Shown here piece by piece: positions 2,126 to 11,460 of a stretch of 34,397 nucleotides of DNA. Below the pieces are notes generated by a model that made no database searches, was not told the DNA's origin, and saw nothing but the letters and a program-made list of their open reading frames with translations. Numbering within the stretch: position 1 is the first letter of the stretch; the number at the start of each line of letters is the position of its first letter. The stretch lies in the NCBI GenBank assembly GCA_015490155.1, contig WFYI01000106.1:1-34397 (forward strand), in the 5' to 3' direction. The DNA comes from Aquificaceae bacterium (lineage in GTDB: Bacteria > Aquificota > Aquificia > Aquificales > Aquificaceae). The translations under genes were made by a program, and so were the position numbers.

Positions 2126-4018
2126 TTAATCAACGGGCTTTGCGTCCACGACATCGTCTCCGCTTCCCTTGTTGTCTCCCTCTTTACCTCCTGCTTGCTT
2201 ACCCGCTTCTTCGTAGAGGGTAGAGCCTAGCTTTGAGGAGACCTGAAGAACCTTCTCCATAACACCCTTTATCTCATCTATGTTCTGGGATTCTGCAACC
2301 ACCTTTTTTGCCTCCTCTATTACCTGCTGAGCCTCCTTAGCGTCCTCTTCCTTAATCTTCTCCTTGTTCTCGTTCAGTATCTTCTCAAGGTTATAGACGA
2401 GCTGGTCTAACTGGTTTTTGGTATCCACAAGCTCCTTTTTCTTCTTGTCTTCCTCCGCGTGGGCTTCCGCTTCTTGTACCATCTTCTCTATCTCCTCCTG
2501 CGTGAGTCCGGAGGAAGGCTCTATCCTTATGGACTGCTCCTTTCCTGTACCCAAGTCCTTGGCAGTTACGTGGAGTATTCCATCCGCGTCTATATCAAAG
2601 CAAACCTCTATCTTGGGAACTCCTCTGGGTGCAGGGGGTATTCCCGTTAAGAAGAACTTACCCAGAGATTTGTTGTCCTTTGCCATAGGTCTTTCGCCCT
2701 GAAGAACGTGTATCTCAACCTCTGTCTGGTAATCGGAGGCCGTCGTGAAGACCTCACACTTCTTGTAGGGTATGGGTGTGTTTCTGGGTATCAAGGTTGT
2801 CATGACTCCTCCGTAGGTTTCTACTCCGAGGGAAAGGGGTACGACATCAACCAAGAGTATCTCCTTCACATCACCGCTGAGAACTCCGGCCTGTATAGCC
2901 GCTCCTACCGCTACCACCTCGTCCGGGTTCACGCCCTTGTGAGGCTCCTTGCCGAAGAATTCCTTAATCCTCTGTTGAACCAGAGGTATCCTCGTAGAAC
3001 CTCCTACGAGAACTACGTCGTTTATGTCGTTGGGTGTGAGTTTTGCGTCTTCAAGGGCGCGCTTTACTATGTCCATAGTCCTGTCTATGAGGTCTTTTAT
3101 CATTTCCTCAAGCCTTGCCCTCGTGAGCTTCTTTTGGAGGTGTAGGGGCTGGTTGGTGTTGGGGTCTATCGTTATGAAGGGCAGGTTTATCTCGGTCTCG
3201 AGCTTGAAGGATAGCTCCTTCTTAGCCTGTTCGGAAGCTTCTTTAAGCCTCTGGAGAGCAGTTCTATCGTTTTTGAGGTCAATACCGTGTTCCTTCTTGA
3301 ACTCCTCTATGAGCCAGTCCATTATCCTCTCGTCCACATTTGCACCGCCGAGGTGGGTGTCCCCGAGGGTAGCCTTAACCTCTATAACTCCATCTCCACC
3401 CTCGAGTATGGACACGTCAAAGGTTCCTCCGCCGAAGTCATAGACGAGTATCTTTACATCGTTTTTCTTATCAAGCCCGTAAGCGAGAGCAGCAGCCGTA
3501 GGCTCGTTTAGTATTCTTACAACCTCTAACCCTGCTATCTTGCCCGCGTCCTTCGTAGCCTGCCTCTGTCTCTCGTTAAAGTACGCTGGGACAGTTATAA
3601 CCGCCTTGCTTACCTTTTCACCTAAATAGTCCTCGGCCGCTTCCTTGAGCTTCCTTAAAACATTTGCTCCAACTTCTTCAGGTCTTACCACCTTACCCGC
3701 GTTGGGTATATCAAATGCGGCGTCTCCTTTGTCGTCAGCAACCACCTTGTAGGTAACTCTCTTAGTTTCTTCCTTTACCTCCTCAAACTTTCTTCCTATA
3801 AACCTCTTTGCTTCGTAAACGGTGTTTTCAGGGTCTAAGACGGCTCTCCGTTTTGCCGGTTCGCCCACGAGAATTTCCTTCTCCTTTGTCCAGGACACAA
3901 TTGAGGGAGTTAAACGGTCTCCCTCTTGGTTCTGGATAACTACAGGTTCATCGCTCACTATTACCGAAACGACCGAGTTCGTAGTTCCTAAGTCTATACC
4001 AAGTATCTTTTCCGCCAT
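2126..4018 (-). CDS. dnaK: Chaperone DnaK (Hsp70)
   Basis: ATP-driven cytosolic chaperone that works with DnaJ and GrpE. Its 630 residues match the family. The N-terminal ATPase begins [17 protein letters not shown], with the phosphate loop and later [10 protein letters not shown] and VGGSTRIP signatures. A substrate-binding domain and a charged helical lid follow. The C-terminal tail is Gly/Asp-rich and ends [10 protein letters not shown], close to the acidic EEVKD-type end of bacterial DnaK. The start is fixed by a strong Shine-Dalgarno sequence (GGAGGAGG) seven bases before the ATG. It is transcribed alone from its own promoter and stopped by a hairpin. No grpE or dnaJ is adjacent, though a J-domain protein lies 7 kb away in the chemotaxis locus. 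Confidence 0.99.
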
Positions 4019-4103: not shown

Positions 4104-4580
4104 TTATAAAAGAAATCTATCAATCGCTTCTCCAAATAGGGCAAATACGTAAATTCTTATAAACCTCGCTATCAATGAGGCAATCAGGAAGCTGACAAAG
4201 GACATACGGAATATACCCGAGAGCCAGCACATAAGTTTGTAAGGCTCTCCTATGAGAACCGCAAAGAAACCGAAGCGGTTAAATAGAGCCTCTCCTTTGA
4301 GGTAGAGTTTTTCGCTGAACAACCTCTTGACAGCAGACTCTCCGAGTTTACGCCCCAGAAAGAAGGACACGAATGCACCCAATATGTTTCCCGCGAAGGC
4401 AACATGGGCTGCAACCCACGGACTTAATCCAAACACGGGCGCCGCGGTTATAAAGGGATAGGGGGGAACCGGCTGGACTATAGACTCGCTGAAGGAAAGC
4501 ACAAAGAGGGCAAAGTAGCCGTAGCTTTGAATAAAGAGTTTTGCCGATGTCTCAAGTTCTTCATAAAAAGGTATGGGCAT
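4104..4580 (-). CDS. YqaA-type DedA/VTT family membrane protein
   Basis: A 158-residue integral membrane protein of the SNARE-associated/VTT superfamily, YqaA branch. Features seen are the N-terminal amphipathic stretch, a re-entrant-like SESIVQPVPPYPFI segment (about 30-45), the GNILGAFVSFFLGRKLGE block (about 64-82) and two later hydrophobic segments. VTT proteins are linked to lipid flipping and membrane homeostasis; the substrate of this one is unknown. Its ATG overlaps the cheW stop by one base (TAATG), so it is probably translationally coupled and is the last gene of the mini-receptor/cheV/cheA/cheW operon. A role in chemotaxis is not implied by sequence; the location may be incidental. 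Confidence 0.8.
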   Translation of the reverse strand: MPIPFYEELETSAKLFIQSYGYFALFVLSFSESIVQPVPPYPFITAAPVFGLSPWVAAHVAFAGNILGAFVSFFLGRKLGESAVKRLFSEKLYLKGEALFNRFGFFAVLIGEPYKLMCWLSGIFRMSFVSFLIASLIARFIRIYVFALFGEAIDRFLL

Positions 4581-5050
4581 TAATGCTCAACTATGGTATC
4601 AAATATTTTGTCTATGTCAAGTATGGAGATCAACCCCTCCTCTATGTGGGCAACGTTCCTGACGTAGGCGCTGTAACGACCCACCATAGGATTGGGTTCT
4701 AACTGGTTTTCCTCGAGCCTTATCACACCTATTATGGTATCAACCAAAACTCCTGCCTTTCCGTGATTAGTATCTAAGGTAACTATCCTTGAGGTTTCCT
4801 TTGTTTCTATCAAACCTAAAAGGTTCTTCAGGGAGAAGATAGGTATTATTTCTCCTCTTAGGTTTATTATTCCTTCCATGTAGTCAGGTGTGAAGGGAAC
4901 CTTAACTATATCAAGGGTCTTTGATATCGTGAGTATTTTCTTTAGGGGGATTCCCACTATTTCGTCTTCTAACATTAAGCTCAAAAACTCTTCTACCTTG
5001 TCGCCTCTGTGTAGAAGTCCTTTGTCTCCCGTAGGGACTATACCGCTCAT
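4580..5050 (-). CDS. cheW: Chemotaxis coupling protein CheW
   Basis: Scaffold protein of 156 residues linking receptors to CheA. It is a single CheW domain: GIPLKKI near residue 33, then the conserved GIINLRGEIIPIFSLK block at 60-75 with the receptor-binding Arg (R65), and a closing GLISILDIDKIF segment. An N-terminal extension of about 18 residues precedes the domain. It lies 14 bases after cheA and overlaps the downstream yqaA-like gene by one base. CheV two genes upstream supplies a second CheW-type coupler. Confidence 0.95.
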   Translation of the reverse strand: MSGIVPTGDKGLLHRGDKVEEFLSLMLEDEIVGIPLKKILTISKTLDIVKVPFTPDYMEGIINLRGEIIPIFSLKNLLGLIETKETSRIVTLDTNHGKAGVLVDTIIGVIRLEENQLEPNPMVGRYSAYVRNVAHIEEGLISILDIDKIFDTIVEH

Positions 5051-5064
5051 AGCTGTCTAACCTC

Positions 5065-6990
5065 CTAAATTATAGCGGCTGAGTTTGTTTCTCTCTTGAG
5101 TATACCTTCAAGGTCTAATATAAGAACTACCTTTCCTTCACCCGTTATGGTTGCACCGGATATTCCTTGTATATCCCCAACTATCTTACTGAAAGGTTTC
5201 ACAACTATCTCTTCGTCTCCGTAAAGCTCCTCGACGGTGAACGCTGCTCTCTGCCCGCCTACCTGAGCCACGATGATGTACCCTATGCTGCCCTCTTCCA
5301 CTCCCAAGATGCTTCCCAATCTGAAAAGGGGTATGGTTTGCTCCCTTAAAAGTAGGACTTCCTTTCCGGAAAGGGTCTTTATCTCTGCATCTTCACCTTG
5401 AATTATCTCGAGGACAGAGTAAATAGGTATGGCATAGAACCTGTCCTTTATAGACACGAGCAGAGACCTTATTATGCCTATTGTGAGGGGGAAAGACATA
5501 AGTATCTTTGTCCCCTTGTTTTTCTCTGTTTCTATATCTATGGTTCCTCTGAAATTGGATACGGTGGTTATAACGACGTCCATCCCCACTCCGCGTCCGG
5601 AAACCTCCGAAACGTCTTCTCTCGTTGAAAATCCGGGATGGAAAATTAGGAAGAGGGTTTCCTTTTTACTCATTTTGTCAAGTCTTTCTCTCGAGACTAT
5701 ACCCTTCTCGAGAGCTTTTAGCTTTACCTTGTCTACATCTATACCTCTGCCGTCGTCAACGATTTCAACAAATATTCTGTCTCCCTGATAGTAAGCCTTG
5801 AGAAGTATCGTTCCCTTTCTGGGTTTTCCGAGCCTCTCCCTTTCCTCAGCCGGCTCTATACCGTGGTCTATGGCATTTCTTATCAGGTGTATCATAGGCT
5901 CTTCGAGCTTCTCTATGATGGTTTTGTCCATCTCAACATCTTCACCTTCGGTTACGAGTTCAACCTCCTTGCCGAGCATTTTCGATAGGTCTCTAACCAC
6001 GCGCGGGAACTTTTGGAATAGCCTTTTCACGGGTTGCATACGCGTTTTCATAACGGCGAGCTGAAGGTCACCGACTATTCTGTCTATGGAGGACAGTATC
6101 GTCTCAAATTCGTCCATGTCCTTTGATACGCATTCCTGGGAAATTTTCTGAAATCCTCTCACTAACCTGTTTCTTTCAAGGACAAGCTCCCCAACCAGGT
6201 TCATGAGAGCCTCTATTTTATCTACGTCTATCCTGAGTACTTTCTCCCCCGCTTGTTTTTCTTTTTTCTCAGGTTTTTCCGCTTTTTTATGCTCCTTTTG
6301 TTCTTTTGGCTGTTCTTCCTTAGCTTGAGCTTCCCCGCGTTTTTCCTGTTCCTCTTCCTCCTTGCTCATCTCTATCATCTTTATGTCGGCTTCAAGCTCC
6401 TTTTCTTTGTACTCTTGCTCGGATACCTCGCCCGTTGAGATTAACTTGTCAAGCTCGGATATTAGCTCGTCCGGTCTTTCGTCAGGTGGTAAGAGTATAA
6501 GCTCTTCAAGAACTTCCTCAATAGGCTTCCCTTTAAGATGAGAAAATCCGTACTCGTCTAAGAGCTTGTCAAGGCTGCTTACTTCGTCAGATGGAGCAGG
6601 TGTAGAGCCAGAAGCAAGGGAGCGTAACTTCTCCACAAGCTCCGTCGGAGTTTCAACCTCTTCTCCCTCCTCGTATTTGCTTATCGCTTCTCTGATAAAG
6701 TCTATCGCAGACAGTATGGCGTCGTTTATATCTGCGGAGAACCTCAGGCTCTTTTCCCTAAGCTTACCTAAGATATCCTCTGCTGCATGAGCCACCTCAA
6801 CTATAGCGTCAAGCCCGAGAAATCCTGCTCCACCCTTGAGGGTGTGCATAGCCCTGAAGGCGCTGTTGAGTATCTCCTCGTTCTCGGGGTCGTTTTCCAG
6901 CTCCAACAGGTCTTGTTCGAGCTTATCGAGGTTTTCCGATGCTTCTACGACAAACTCGTTAAAAATCTCCCTCATGTCGTCGTTAATCAT
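5065..6990 (-). CDS. cheA: Chemotaxis histidine kinase CheA (linker peptide instead of a clear P2 domain)
   Basis: Sensor kinase of 641 residues that phosphorylates CheY (and probably CheV). Domains: HPt at 1-110 with the phospho-His in RAMHTLKGGAGF (H49); a region at 125-245 without a recognisable P2 fold, containing SSLDKLLDEYGF (138-149) and then a low-complexity Glu/Lys linker (190-250); dimerisation helices at about 250-310; ATPase with N box HLIRNAIDHG (368-377), G1 DDGRGI (412-417) and G2 GRGVGMD (465-471); and a CheW-like P5 domain from about 505 to the end. The linker peptide matches the CheZ C-terminus and FliM N-terminus of the next operon, so it probably docks CheY. A GGGAG ribosome site lies before the ATG, which is three bases after cheV. 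Confidence 0.97.
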   Translation of the reverse strand: MINDDMREIFNEFVVEASENLDKLEQDLLELENDPENEEILNSAFRAMHTLKGGAGFLGLDAIVEVAHAAEDILGKLREKSLRFSADINDAILSAIDFIREAISKYEEGEEVETPTELVEKLRSLASGSTPAPSDEVSSLDKLLDEYGFSHLKGKPIEEVLEELILLPPDERPDELISELDKLISTGEVSEQEYKEKELEADIKMIEMSKEEEEQEKRGEAQAKEEQPKEQKEHKKAEKPEKKEKQAGEKVLRIDVDKIEALMNLVGELVLERNRLVRGFQKISQECVSKDMDEFETILSSIDRIVGDLQLAVMKTRMQPVKRLFQKFPRVVRDLSKMLGKEVELVTEGEDVEMDKTIIEKLEEPMIHLIRNAIDHGIEPAEERERLGKPRKGTILLKAYYQGDRIFVEIVDDGRGIDVDKVKLKALEKGIVSRERLDKMSKKETLFLIFHPGFSTREDVSEVSGRGVGMDVVITTVSNFRGTIDIETEKNKGTKILMSFPLTIGIIRSLLVSIKDRFYAIPIYSVLEIIQGEDAEIKTLSGKEVLLLREQTIPLFRLGSILGVEEGSIGYIIVAQVGGQRAAFTVEELYGDEEIVVKPFSKIVGDIQGISGATITGEGKVVLILDLEGILKRETNSAAII

Positions 6991-6993
6991 CGC

Positions 6994-7953
6994 CTACTCC
7001 CCCTTGGCTCTTTTCTTGACGGTTTCCTGAACGAGCTTCAACAGGTCTTTAGCGTCGAACTTAACTATGTAGGCGTCCGCATTAACCCTGTATGCCCTCT
7101 GTTTATTTGATTCATCACTCAGCGTGGAATTAACTATGACCGGCAGTCCCATAAGCCCTATTGACTCCTTTACCTTCTTAGTAAAGGTAAGTCCGTCCAT
7201 GTTGGGCATCTCTATGTCCGTTATAACGAGCTGTATGTAATCCGTTATAGGTTTCCCTTCAGCCTTTGCCCTGTCAAGGTACTTCGTGAGTATCTCGTAA
7301 GCCTCAAGCCCGTCCTCCGCAAGTATTACGTTGTGTCCCGCACTTCCGAGGATGTCCGAGATAATTTTTCTCGCAACCGGAGAGTCGTCTGCTACGAGTA
7401 TGGTGTAAGTTTCTCCCTGCTGGGAGTCCTTAGCCTCCGCTTCGTGGAAAATCTTAAGAAGTCCTATGTCGTGAAGTATACCCTCAAAGTCGAGAATTAT
7501 TAGCAGTCCGTCTTCCGTATCTACAACTCCTGTTATCCTGCCGTTAAGCTTTTGGTTCAGTGTCTCCGGAGGCTTTTTGATGTCCGCCCAGGAGATTCTC
7601 CTTATCCTTTTTGCATCATGAACTATAACGCTTACGTTCTCCCGTAAGAACTCGAGATGTAACAGGTACTTCTTTCTGGAGTCAGGTTCGTCTATCCCCA
7701 TCCACCTCGCAAGGCTAATAACTGGAACGAGTCTTTCTCTTATCTCCGTCATACCTTCAACTTCCGGCGGCATATTGGGAACTTTCGTTATCTTAGGTAG
7801 TATAAGAACCTCCCTAACCTTAGCCACGTTCACACCGAATATCCACTCGTAGATTCCGCTTTCCCTGTCCTCGTATATCCGGAAATCAACTATCTCAAGC
7901 TCGTTGGAACCCGTCTCCAATATATCCGGAAGTCCGTATTTTTCTCCGCTCAT
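6994..7953 (-). CDS. cheV: Chemotaxis coupler/response regulator CheV
   Basis: A 319-residue fusion of a CheW domain (about 20-165) with a receiver domain (about 183-315). Receiver residues are all present: acidic pair D189/D190, phospho-acceptor D246 in [12 protein letters not shown], Thr/Ser switch near NSTLS (275-279) and K298 in YIVKFD. CheV couples receptors to CheA, and its phosphorylation tunes that coupling, giving a form of adaptation without receptor methylation. This may matter here because no cheR, cheB or cheD is in the window. Its ATG overlaps the mini-receptor stop by four bases (ATGA). Confidence 0.95.
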
Positions 7954-8225
7954 TCCTTCCCCTCACCGGCTTCAACCGTGGAGTGCAGAGCCTCAATTCT
8001 ACCTTTTATACTCGTAGATAACTTAGCGGTGCTGTCCGCGAGCTTTCTGAACTCCGAGGCTACGACCGCAAAACCTTTACCGGCCTCCCCGACGCGAGCA
8101 GCCTCTATGGCCGCATTTAGGGCAAGGAGGTTAGACTGCTTGGCTATCTTAGTAAGGGATTCTGCCAGTTCTTCCAGCTCCTCCAGCTCCTTTTTAATCT
8201 TCTCAATGTCTAAGTTTTCCACCAT
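7950..8225 (-). CDS. Mini-chemoreceptor: signalling-tip hairpin only, 91 residues
   Basis: The protein consists almost wholly of the tip of a methyl-accepting chemotaxis protein hairpin. Residues 6-30 form a charged helix. Residues 31-58 hold the near-invariant tip ([19 protein letters not shown], then [14 protein letters not shown]), and residues 60-88 form the returning helix. There is no ligand domain, membrane segment, HAMP domain or methylation region. Each arm is about six heptads long, against roughly 18-22 in usual receptors. The start chosen is the ATG at 8225, which has GGAGG five bases upstream; a GTG at 8237 would add four residues but would bury that ribosome site inside the coding sequence. 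It leads the cheV-cheA-cheW operon. It should be able to bind CheA and CheW; any sensory input would have to come from a partner. Confidence 0.88.
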
Positions 8226-8271
8226 CTCCACCTCCACTCAATTCCTATTTTAAATTAAAATTTAAAGAATT
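8226..8271. promoter_or_regulatory. Divergent control region of the two chemotaxis operons
   Basis: Only 46 bases separate the mini-receptor ATG (minus) from the fliM ATG (plus). The middle is A/T-only over about 20 bases (8246-8265) and nearly palindromic. TAAAAT on the minus strand (8247-8252) could be a -10 box, and TAAAAT on the plus strand (8256-8261) another. I see no convincing -35 box and no sigma-28 flagellar motif. Confidence 0.4.
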
Positions 8272-9246
8272 ATGGAGCAGGATTTTTTATCCCAAGAAGA
8301 GGTTGACCTCCTGCTCAAAAGCTTGGGAAAGGAACAGGAAGAGGCGGAAGGCGGTGATGAAAGGGAGGACGTTAAGCCCTTTGACATAAACGAGCTTGAA
8401 AAGATATCCCCTCTTAGGTATGCGAGACTTGAGCAGATAATAAACAAGTGGACTGTTTACCTCTTCCCGGAGTTAAAGTCCGTTGTTATAAACCTCGAGA
8501 ACATATCTATGAAATCCCTATCCCATGAGAAGCTCTCTGATTTTATCCTTAAGATACCTCTTCCCTCTGCGATAGCCGTTTTGGAAATAGAACCCCTCGA
8601 GGGAAAGTTCTACCTGATAATAGACCCCAGGCTCCTTTACACCATAGTGAGCGTGGTTTTGGGAGGACCACCCAAGTCCTACAAGATAGAGGGCAAGAGT
8701 TTTACAAAGGTGGAGTACAGGATAATGAAGAGGGTTCTTACGAAGATGGTAGATACCCTCGATAGAGCGTGGAACGAGTTCATACCGGACAGCAGAATAA
8801 GGCTTGTGGACATAGACGATAACCCGCGTCACCTCATAACCGTGAGCAAACAGGAAATAATCCTTCTTACCACCATGGAGCTTGAGATAGAAACATTCAA
8901 AGGGCAGTTTTTCTTAGTCCTACCCATGAAAAACTTAGACCCTATAAAGGACACACTCAGAAACACGAGAACGGGTGAGGAAAACCTAAAAGATGTGGTG
9001 GTAGAAAACCTTATGAATACACCTGTTCTTATAGAAGCTCTCCTCGATAGATTTCAGATGAGTGTAAGAGACATACTGAACCTTAAAGAGGGAGATATAA
9101 TAAACACCGATAGGTACATAAGTTCTAAAATAAGCATAATAGCCGGGGGAGTTCCTTTGTTTGAAGGGACGCTCGGGACTTCGAGAGGTAAGAAGGCTGT
9201 TAGGATAGACATGCTTAAAGAAACTAAGGCTAAGGGGGATATGTGA
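8272..9246 (+). CDS. fliM: Flagellar motor switch protein FliM
   Basis: C-ring component of 324 residues that receives phospho-CheY and sets rotation direction. The N-terminal CheY-binding peptide FLSQEEVDLLLKSLG (5-19) is followed by an acidic linker (20-40), the middle domain (about 45-240, including VVLGGPP near 130) and the C-terminal FliN-like SpoA domain (about 245-315, with LKEGDII and VDVGE-like elements replaced by local variants). The ATG has no clear Shine-Dalgarno sequence. Other flagellar genes are not in the window, so the motor is encoded elsewhere. It heads a tight operon with cheZ, cheY, a receptor and a J-domain protein. Confidence 0.95.
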   Translation: MEQDFLSQEEVDLLLKSLGKEQEEAEGGDEREDVKPFDINELEKISPLRYARLEQIINKWTVYLFPELKSVVINLENISMKSLSHEKLSDFILKIPLPSAIAVLEIEPLEGKFYLIIDPRLLYTIVSVVLGGPPKSYKIEGKSFTKVEYRIMKRVLTKMVDTLDRAWNEFIPDSRIRLVDIDDNPRHLITVSKQEIILLTTMELEIETFKGQFFLVLPMKNLDPIKDTLRNTRTGEENLKDVVVENLMNTPVLIEALLDRFQMSVRDILNLKEGDIINTDRYISSKISIIAGGVPLFEGTLGTSRGKKAVRIDMLKETKAKGDM

Positions 9247-9249
9247 GCC

Positions 9250-9807
9250 ATGAAGGATTTTGAATCTCTTATAAAGGAGCTTCTCGAGAGCGTTAGAACC
9301 CTTGAGGAGACCTTAGAGAAGGCTAAGAAGCCGATAGAAACGAGCTCCCAAATCATACCTCAAACCACCGAGAATATCCGCGATGTCATGCAATTTCTCG
9401 AGGATACCTCCCATAACATAATGAACTACCTCGAGGAGATAAACACCAACTCGAAAGCAATTCAGGAGGATATAGATTTCCTCATGTCTCTGAACCCTAC
9501 GCAGAAAATAAAAGACAAGCTCGTTGATATGAAGAAGAGGAACGACGAGAACCTTAACATCTTGCTTCAGTTGTTCTCTATGATGTCCTTCCATGACTTG
9601 GCGGGACAGCAGCTTAAACTCGTTATATCCTCACTTGAGTCAATAAAGGAGAACCTTATAAACGTTATAGTAGCCAAAGTTGCGGAGGAGAAGAAGCTCG
9701 AGGACAAAGAGGTTGAAAAGCTCAAGGGTAAGGTATCGGAGCTTCTTACGCAAGACCGTGTATCTCAAGACGATGTTGATAAGCTTTTGGAGGAGTACGG
9801 ACTATAG
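9250..9807 (+). CDS. cheZ: CheY-P phosphatase CheZ
   Basis: Helical protein of 185 residues that removes phosphate from CheY. The catalytic motif is SFHDLAGQQLK with D116 and Q120, matching the family DLTGQ pattern (D143/Q147 in E. coli). Long flanking helices should form the four-helix bundle dimer. The C-terminal SQDDVDKLLEEYGL (172-185) matches the CheY-binding tail of known CheZ proteins and resembles both the FliM N-terminus and the CheA linker peptide. It starts three bases after fliM and is followed by cheY. CheZ is common in proteobacteria; its presence here fits the proteobacterial-like genes often seen in Aquificales. Confidence 0.9.
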   Translation: MKDFESLIKELLESVRTLEETLEKAKKPIETSSQIIPQTTENIRDVMQFLEDTSHNIMNYLEEINTNSKAIQEDIDFLMSLNPTQKIKDKLVDMKKRNDENLNILLQLFSMMSFHDLAGQQLKLVISSLESIKENLINVIVAKVAEEKKLEDKEVEKLKGKVSELLTQDRVSQDDVDKLLEEYGL

Positions 9808-9821
9808 AGGAGGTATGAGTA

Positions 9822-10205
9822 ATGCCCTTACCGCCCAAAGACATTAGGATACTTGTCGTTGACGACATGAGTACGATGAGAAGGATTATCCGAACAATAC
9901 TAAACCAGTTGGGCTACGAGAACATAGAGGAGGCTGAAAATGGAAAGCAAGCCCTTGCAAAGCTCAGGTCTGAGAAGTTTGATTTCGTGGTAACTGACTG
10001 GAATATGCCGGAGATGGACGGCTTAACACTCGTTCAAGAAATTAGGAAAGATGAGAACTTGAAGAGCCTTCCCGTGCTTATGGTAACAGCGGAGGCTAAA
10101 AAGGAAAACGTTCTTATGGCACTTAAAGCCGGGGTTAATAACTACATAGTTAAGCCTTTCACGCCGGAGGTTCTGAAGGAAAAGATAGAAAAAATCTTTA
10201 AGTAA
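9822..10205 (+). CDS. cheY: Chemotaxis response regulator CheY
   Basis: Single receiver domain of 127 residues that carries the signal from CheA to FliM. Functional residues are all present: D14/D15, phospho-acceptor D59 in [11 protein letters not shown]89 in MVTAEA, Y108 and K111 in NYIVKPF. The sequence is very close to the classical CheY form, including the aromatic residue used to bind FliM. A strong ribosome site (GAGGAGG) precedes the ATG. Its position between the genes for its phosphatase and a soluble receptor supports the chemotaxis role over a generic receiver. Confidence 0.97.
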
Positions 10206-10207
10206 TC

Positions 10208-10969
10208 ATGGAGAATAGTATAGAGGAAAGGCTCAGGCTCTTAGAGAAAGCCTGTAGCTTGACGGATGTGGGAGTGGTGTTGCTTGAGGAAGGCACGGTT
10301 AGCTATGCCAACTATGTGGCGGAGGAGTTTCTATCGAGCCACGACTTAAACGAGTTGGAAAAGAAGACCCTAATCCTTTACAGAGACGGGCGTTCCATAG
10401 TATTCAGAAAGACCGAGAGTAAAGCTCAATCCTCTGTTTTGGAAACCTCTTCTGAAGCTCTAAGGGAGCTTGAGGAAATCCTAAGAATCATAGAGAACGG
10501 TGTTTCCATAGCGGAAGAGGTGGCTTCCGCTTCTTCAAAAACGGAAGAGGAATTGAAGCAGGACATTGAACTCGTAAACAGATTAATAGAGGAATCCTCC
10601 GGGATAAAAAGAATTCTTACCTTTATAAACGAGGTTTCAGAACAGACCTCACTCCTTTCTTTGAACGCCACCATAGAGGCTGCACGGGTAGGAGAAGCCG
10701 GCAGGGGCTTTGCGGTCGTGGCAGAGGAGATAGGTAAGTTAGCTTCAAAGACTATAGAGTTCACAGAGGAGATAAGCCAAGTGCTTAAAAAGATAGAGAG
10801 GAGTATATCTACCATAAGTGAGCATATAGATAAGATTGTAGGGCTTGCCGGAGAACAGAAGGAGCTTTCCTCGGACGCGGAGATGCTCTTTTACCTGATA
10901 AGGGATAGAACCGACACCTTAAGGGACAGGTACAGGGAAATCAACGAGCTTATTGCTAAACTCTCTTAG
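10208..10969 (+). CDS. Soluble chemoreceptor with PAS-like N-terminus
   Basis: A 253-residue methyl-accepting-protein relative with no membrane segment. Residues 15-68 read like a short PAS fold ([20 protein letters not shown], then a FRKTE strand). Residues 75-253 form a coiled-coil hairpin whose tip [18 protein letters not shown] and [15 protein letters not shown] lies at 148-179. The arms are about ten heptads, shorter than usual receptors, and I see no clear methylation-site consensus. It is probably a cytoplasmic sensor that binds CheA/CheW. It starts two bases after cheY without a Shine-Dalgarno sequence, so translation may depend on coupling. The PAS assignment is uncertain. Confidence 0.85.
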
Positions 10970-10980
10970 GAGGGTATAGT

Positions 10981-11460
10981 ATGAAATCCTTCTGTAAGAA
11001 GGTTATCGAACACATGTACGACACCAGACTTGAGGATTTTATCTCCTCCTTCTACGAGCTGTACGGTAGATACAAGCACCTAAACGAGGACGATTTCTTT
11101 AGGGAATGGTTCGACCGCTTTGTGGTTCGGAGCCTTATGAAGTACTTTTCTCCTGTGATAATATCTGAGAACCTCGAAGAGGTTAGACATATTAAAAGGA
11201 AGGCTTACGTTACCTACGTCAGAACTTACTGGAGTTTGTGTTCTTATCCCAGAAGGTATCCCGGCAGAGTGGAGGAGGCGAAAAGGTTCTTTAATATAGA
11301 GGAACTTAACATGAAAACTCTCAAGAGAGCTTACAGGAATATGGTAAGGGAGAATCACCCTGACAGGGTAGGCAGGAGTAAAAAAAGTCACTTGAACATG
11401 GTAAAAATCAATTACTACTATCAGATACTTAAAGGCTACCTTGAGAATGTAGCTGCATAG
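10981..11460 (+). CDS. C-terminal J-domain protein of the chemotaxis operon
   Basis: A 159-residue protein. Residues 1-105 are an unrecognised, helical, aromatic and basic region. Residues 108-155 form a compact J domain: LKRAYRNMVRENHPDR carries the HPD triad at 126-128, and the third helix follows (VKINYYYQILKGYL). J domains stimulate Hsp70 ATPase, so DnaK is the expected partner. There is no Gly/Phe or zinc region, so it is not DnaJ itself; the layout is that of a client-specific cochaperone, as in DjlA/HscB-like proteins with a terminal J domain. A strong ribosome site (AGGAGGG) precedes the ATG. It is last in the fliM operon, and its stop directly abuts the stop of glmU on the other strand. 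Confidence 0.85.
   Translation: MKSFCKKVIEHMYDTRLEDFISSFYELYGRYKHLNEDDFFREWFDRFVVRSLMKYFSPVIISENLEEVRHIKRKAYVTYVRTYWSLCSYPRRYPGRVEEAKRFFNIEELNMKTLKRAYRNMVRENHPDRVGRSKKSHLNMVKINYYYQILKGYLENVAA

Follow-up and report, generated by a model that had tools for sequence, protein, structure and literature searches.

We asked whether a 91-residue chemoreceptor that appears to consist of nothing but the signaling tip is a gene in its own right, and what such a protein might do. The gene lies in a 34,397-nucleotide stretch of DNA from an Aquificaceae bacterium (contig WFYI01000106.1), which is called the window here. A first-pass annotation, made from the sequence by itself, had described the protein as the hairpin tip that contacts CheA and CheW, and had offered three options for it: a structural filler of receptor arrays, a dominant modulator of kinase activity, or a module that pairs with another protein.

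The open reading frame occupies positions 7950–8225 of the minus strand, including the stop codon (7950–7952), with its ATG at 8225; the strand is our addition to the annotation. The plus strand of the same interval contains several stops. A Shine-Dalgarno sequence, GGAGG, is present at 8231–8235 (minus strand), and a similar one precedes the ATG in most orthologues. An alternative GTG start at 8237 overlaps this GGAGG, and the ATG at 8225 is therefore the better start. The protein matched the Pfam MCPsignal profile (PF00015) with 86.6 bits (E 2.3e-24; cut-off 34.6), and is by its signaling-tip sequence a member of the MCP family; the match spans only positions 25–102 of the 172 in the profile. 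The glutamate at the center of the hairpin turn, which corresponds to E391 of Tsr and is invariant in tips and longer receptors, is residue 47 (8085–8087), giving arms of 46 and 44 residues, or about six heptads each, as had been annotated. Pfam and hydrophobicity analyses of the tip found no sensory domain and no membrane anchor, the entire protein being tip, which bears out the earlier statement on this point; across the orthologues the best 19-residue Kyte-Doolittle mean was at most 0.98, too low for a membrane helix. The methylation sites of receptors fall outside the tip part. Methylation helices are accordingly absent from this protein, whose arms have about 45 residues and whose match stops at profile position 102 of 172.

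The tip gene is the first of a minus-strand series, tip-cheV-cheA-cheW, in agreement with its annotation as the head of this operon. Its stop codon overlaps the cheV start (ATGA, 7950–7953). The cheV gene (6994–7953) encodes 319 amino acids with a CheW domain and a receiver; it is followed by cheA (5065–6990; 641 amino acids, with Pfam Hpt, H-kinase_dim, HATPase_c, and CheW domains) and cheW (4580–5050; 156 amino acids, one CheW domain). On the opposite strand are fliM (8272–9246), cheZ (9250–9807), cheY (9822–10205), and the gene for a 253-residue cytosolic receptor (10208–10969; PF00015, 99.8 bits), a possible partner for the tip in trimers. At the position of Tsr 376, both this receptor and its orthologue in genome G001 carry Ser rather than Asn, and at 404 they carry Gly rather than Arg; their tip region is canonical apart from this. 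The tip ATG and the divergent fliM ATG (8272) are separated by 46 bases (8226–8271), which leaves no room for the remnant of a longer receptor. This interval contained no promoter-like match, and fliM has no obvious Shine-Dalgarno sequence; a promoter and terminator scan of the tip region found nothing.

Two chaperone-type genes lie near this cluster. Positions 10981–11460, adjoining the chemotaxis genes, encode a 159-residue protein whose C-terminal part is a J domain (PF00226; E 3.5e-6, narrowly below the cut-off). The orthologue in genome G009 scores 37.4 bits, and most tip-bearing genomes keep the gene in their che loci. A dnaK gene (Hsp70, 830.9 bits) is at 2126–4018, two genes downstream of cheW, and dnaK is also near cheW in genomes G001, G006, and G021. 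In the genome from which the window comes (1.59 Mb in 127 contigs), seven proteins account for eight MCP-domain matches, and the tip is the only one of these proteins shorter than 250 amino acids. Outside the window, contig C91 of this genome carries an F9-like set at about 25866–35123, which consists of a triple-CheW protein (462 amino acids), a double-MCP protein (632), an MCP of 391 amino acids, a CheA of 761, and CheR.

Distribution was examined in 41 genomes, the window's genome and its relatives. Short tip orthologues, with open frames of 82–128 amino acids, were present in 17, all among the 22 genomes that have CheA; none of the 19 genomes without CheA had one. The five CheA-bearing genomes that lack the tip belong to two genera (g13 and g14), and to judge by them a chemotaxis system of this order can work without it. 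In a search of the phylum, 36 of 136 genomes matched with an E value no higher than 1e-19. The matches were short frames, with the single exception of a frame of 407 amino acids in G120; from some drafts of genus g6 this search recovered no tip. Among the matches listed in a contig scan that reached outside Aquificota with patterns derived from the tip, four Aquificales loci had frames of 92–110 amino acids, and the other 76 loci had frames of 222–808. Length statistics were compiled after start codons had been chosen, with G092 left out and G064 added. G092 is an error-rich draft in which cheA and cheV are also fragmented and the tip has an odd N-terminal arm; it was excluded from the tree as well. 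An apparent in-frame stop in G064 was considered as a possible frameshift remnant and proved to be the natural end of a shorter, 77-residue tip. The resulting 33 tip proteins, including that of the window, come from two families and are 77–121 amino acids long (median 91), with arms of 45 and 45 residues at the median.

In 33 of 33 loci, counting the window and G092, cheV is the next gene downstream of the tip gene; in most of them the two overlap or lie no more than about 30 bases apart. In all tip loci that were mapped, cheA follows cheV. Farther upstream the loci differ: some have fliM there, some a longer receptor, and some cheY together with a receptor. Nei-Gojobori dN/dS values of the tips, taken from close pairs whose sites were not saturated, were 0.00–0.04; the tip gene is under strong purifying selection. 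A maximum-likelihood tree was built from 28 tips and 60 longer receptors of the same genomes and phylum, using 82 columns that left the finer branching unresolved. All 28 tips fell on one side of a single branch, which had a support of 100/100; the stem measured 1.02 changes per site. In the CheA tree, all 17 sampled sequences from tip-bearing genomes formed one lineage apart from two from tip-less genomes, and in the CheV tree the 17 tip-bearing sequences were likewise separate from two tip-less ones. Because short orthologues, locus, selection, tip clade, and the CheA and CheV trees all agree, we conclude that one chemosensory lineage has the tip as a fixed component.

These results also bear on the possibility that the gene is a truncated receptor, a pseudogene, or an assembly artefact. 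The Pfam match does cover only the middle of the domain, as a truncation would have it; however, the short orthologues stand at the same place in every locus, form one fully supported clade, and show dN/dS values near zero, and the gene has its own Shine-Dalgarno sequence and ATG without upstream space for a remnant. We found no full-length orthologue at any examined locus, the opposite of what the first-pass annotation had named as evidence for a truncated copy, and no sign of relaxed selection. A truncation, pseudogene, or frameshift remnant was therefore rejected, and we regard its probability as negligible.

To compare residues, 29 tips were aligned with 63 longer receptors, and Tsr numbering was set by the hairpin turn, with E391 equal to tip residue 47. 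From 376 to 407 the two groups are nearly identical except for a few fixed changes. Residues L362, L365, N366, and A368 of TM1143 from T. maritima have been reported as contacts with CheW and CheA (PMC5706961), and align to Tsr 377, 380, 381, and 383. The first three of these positions are invariant in 29 of 29 tips, and at 383 Ala is found in 25 tips and Val in the other 4; by this alignment, the reported CheW/CheA contact residues are kept in the tips. The trimer contacts, as worked out from the residues that PMC8466855 lists, include 373, 381, 385, 388, and 398. The last four are invariant in the tips and include the two residues of the described E385–R388' lock (PMC8144572). At contact 373, all 29 tips have Lys (Lys29 of the window's protein, 8139–8141), whereas 62 of the 63 longer receptors have Glu or Asp.

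Further changes were fixed in all 29 tips. Position 401 is small and neutral in the tips and Asp or Glu in 63 of 63 longer receptors; 403 is Phe (Phe59, 8049–8051) in place of the Val or Ile of all 63; 389 is Val (Val45, 8091–8093), compared with Ala in 59 of 63; 394 is Lys, compared with Arg in 58 of 63; and 370 is Lys or Arg where the longer receptors mostly have Glu, Asp, or Ser. The heptad pattern puts 389 and 403 in the core, where the bulkier residues may stabilize a short bundle that has to hold together by itself. In the longer receptors, Glu373 lies opposite Lys or Arg409 across the hairpin if the turn is taken as an axis of simple symmetry; in the tips both positions are changed, to Lys and mostly Asn, respectively. 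Lys373 may alter the choice of trimer partners, possibly favoring mixed trimers with Glu373 receptors, but it could also mean that the tips avoid trimers or bind some different partner. Positions 370, 394, 401, and 409, which have changed too, are on surfaces where another partner might bind.

Some relatives have unusual receptor sets. The complete genome G009 (1,500,577 bases) encodes only two MCP-domain proteins, an 86-residue tip and a 183-residue hairpin (L051:7455–8006) in which no recognizable sensor was found, and its che cluster is otherwise complete, with cheZ, cheY, cheV, cheA, and cheW all present. Orthologues of the 183-residue protein elsewhere have about 70–120 additional N-terminal residues, with only weak PAS similarity in two; in the aligned family of the window's 253-residue receptor, two orthologues have a weakly PAS-like N terminus. 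In genome G028, which is 99% complete, locus L174 has a cheA-cheW-cheV-cheY cluster and the genome gave no PF00015 match at all, so that this is apparently a chemotaxis cluster without receptors. Dependence of the tip on CheR-based adaptation was considered and rejected: five tip-bearing genomes had no CheR match of any kind, and the tip is thus independent of methylation-based adaptation.

Solved structures that match the tip include receptor chains of its size in PDB entries 3UR1 (85 amino acids) and 4JPB (90 amino acids), with 56.5 bits. We take both entries to be complexes with CheA and CheW, and their receptor tips to be laboratory constructs. The tip is the same part of the receptor at the same length, and differs from these chains in being encoded by a natural gene. 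A Tar cytoplasmic fragment without its membrane part has been shown to form arrays with CheA and CheW and to activate the kinase in vitro (PMC3964821). By analogy with the engineered tips of the same size and with the Tar fragment arrays, the 91-residue tip is a plausible binding-competent unit. Like other MCPs (PF00015), it retains the hallmark hairpin sequence and the CheW/CheA contacts; of the trimer contacts, four are kept and 373 is changed. Unlike other MCPs, it has no sensor, membrane segment, HAMP domain, or methylation helices, and it forms its own clade with fixed changes at 373, 401, and 403 and with Val389 and Lys394.

The first-pass annotation had also held that known short receptors still carry a sensory domain. 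The tip is indeed a receptor without one, but sensor-less receptors are not new. DosM, a receptor with two signaling domains, has no sensor in 98% of its homologues and was described as a scaffold (PMC9321776); it is found in every other trimer of the V. cholerae F9 arrays (PMC7534058). The tip may work as DosM does, a usually sensor-less structural scaffold that shares its array with other receptors. It is unlike DosM in being a single hairpin of about 90 residues in a cheV-cheA-cheW operon; DosM has two full signaling domains and goes with a triple CheW. The DosM partner CheW3 is absent next to the tip, where the adjoining cheW has a single domain, and the triple-CheW gene of this genome is on contig C91. 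Membership of the tip in the F9/DosM system was rejected on these grounds, the different contig and neighbors, and also because several tip-bearing genomes have no double-domain receptor. Natural soluble, single-chain MCP signaling domains from Rhodospirillum centenum and a few other organisms are mentioned in PMC4692393. They share with the tip the lack of a membrane part; they are described as resembling constructs with two kinase-control subunits, far larger than the tip. The literature searched, outside which most subscription papers fell, gave no description of a natural tip-only receptor or of any receptor this small, and among the listed matches of the contig scan the frames of 92–110 amino acids were all in Aquificales.

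We propose that the tip is a dedicated subunit without a sensor, which assembles into the CheA/CheW/CheV array together with longer receptors, and we consider the odds that this reading is right to be about even. Its chains would fold as short helical hairpins and dimerize into a stub of a four-helix bundle. The dimers would be incorporated into trimers of dimers at the baseplate formed by CheA, CheW, and CheV, preferably mixed with the longer receptors of the cell; such Lys-Glu neighbors would be favored because 373 is Lys in one partner and Glu or Asp in the other. There the tip could give CheW, CheV, and CheA-P5 additional places to dock, help to build or close the array, and determine how active the kinase is at rest and what fraction of each trimer consists of sensing receptors. 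Since it carries no input of its own, its part would be that of scaffold and tuner. We infer the dimerization, the mixed trimers, the binding of CheV, CheW, and CheA, and the effect on the kinase. A more far-reaching version, which we hold only tentatively and think doubtful, makes the sensor-less tip an obligatory array subunit: the charge reversal at 373 would impose fixed mixed trimers, the number of sensing receptors per trimer would be set genetically, and the whole array of one complete relative would consist of two receptors without recognizable sensors.

Other readings shift the weight from the array to a single partner. The tip might mainly hold CheV, in a soluble or array-bound unit that provides a CheV-specific docking site or acts as a phosphate-sink module. 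The unbroken tip-cheV adjacency, with genes that mostly overlap or nearly do, would suit such a pairing, as would the proposal that CheV is an adaptor for particular receptors (PMC4742279). However, this adjacency does not single out CheV, because cheA in turn follows cheV in all of the mapped tip loci; moreover, the tip-less relatives also possess CheV, and the tips retain the CheW/CheA contact residues in their general form. We think this reading rather improbable, and are somewhat less inclined to see the tip as a soluble, constitutive activator or inhibitor of CheA that competes with full receptors and has no structural place in the array. Signaling is retained by cytoplasmic Tsr fragments that lack the methylation segments (Ames, Yu and Parkinson 1996, cited in PMC3570549), and the tip has no membrane anchor; but its trimer contacts are invariant except at 373, and a simple competitor needs no fixed change there.

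It is very unlikely that the tip is an assembly factor, which would nucleate or chaperone CheA/CheW/CheV rings at high temperature and not remain a stable member of the array. The idea draws on the J-domain gene in the che neighborhood of most tip genomes and on the dnaK near cheW in several; this link to chaperones is one of neighborhood only, and the strictly kept contact residues fit a permanent interface at least as well. Sequence alone cannot separate the three options raised at the outset, but the evidence tends toward a subunit that co-assembles and has a structural or tuning role.

The tip is real and conserved, forms one clade under strong constraint, and is a variant of the chemoreceptors. 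G009, with two receptors of which neither has a recognizable sensor, raises the question of what such a system senses. The fixed Lys at a trimer contact provides a simple, testable idea for how receptors might be sorted into mixed trimers, and the protein itself, small, soluble, and probably stable to heat, is a natural module suited to structural studies of the CheA/CheW/CheV complex. A piece that structural biology had engineered thus exists in nature as a conserved part in a lineage of heat-loving Aquificales. The smallest receptor that builds arrays and controls CheA has so far been studied with engineered fragments; this lineage appears to have made one.
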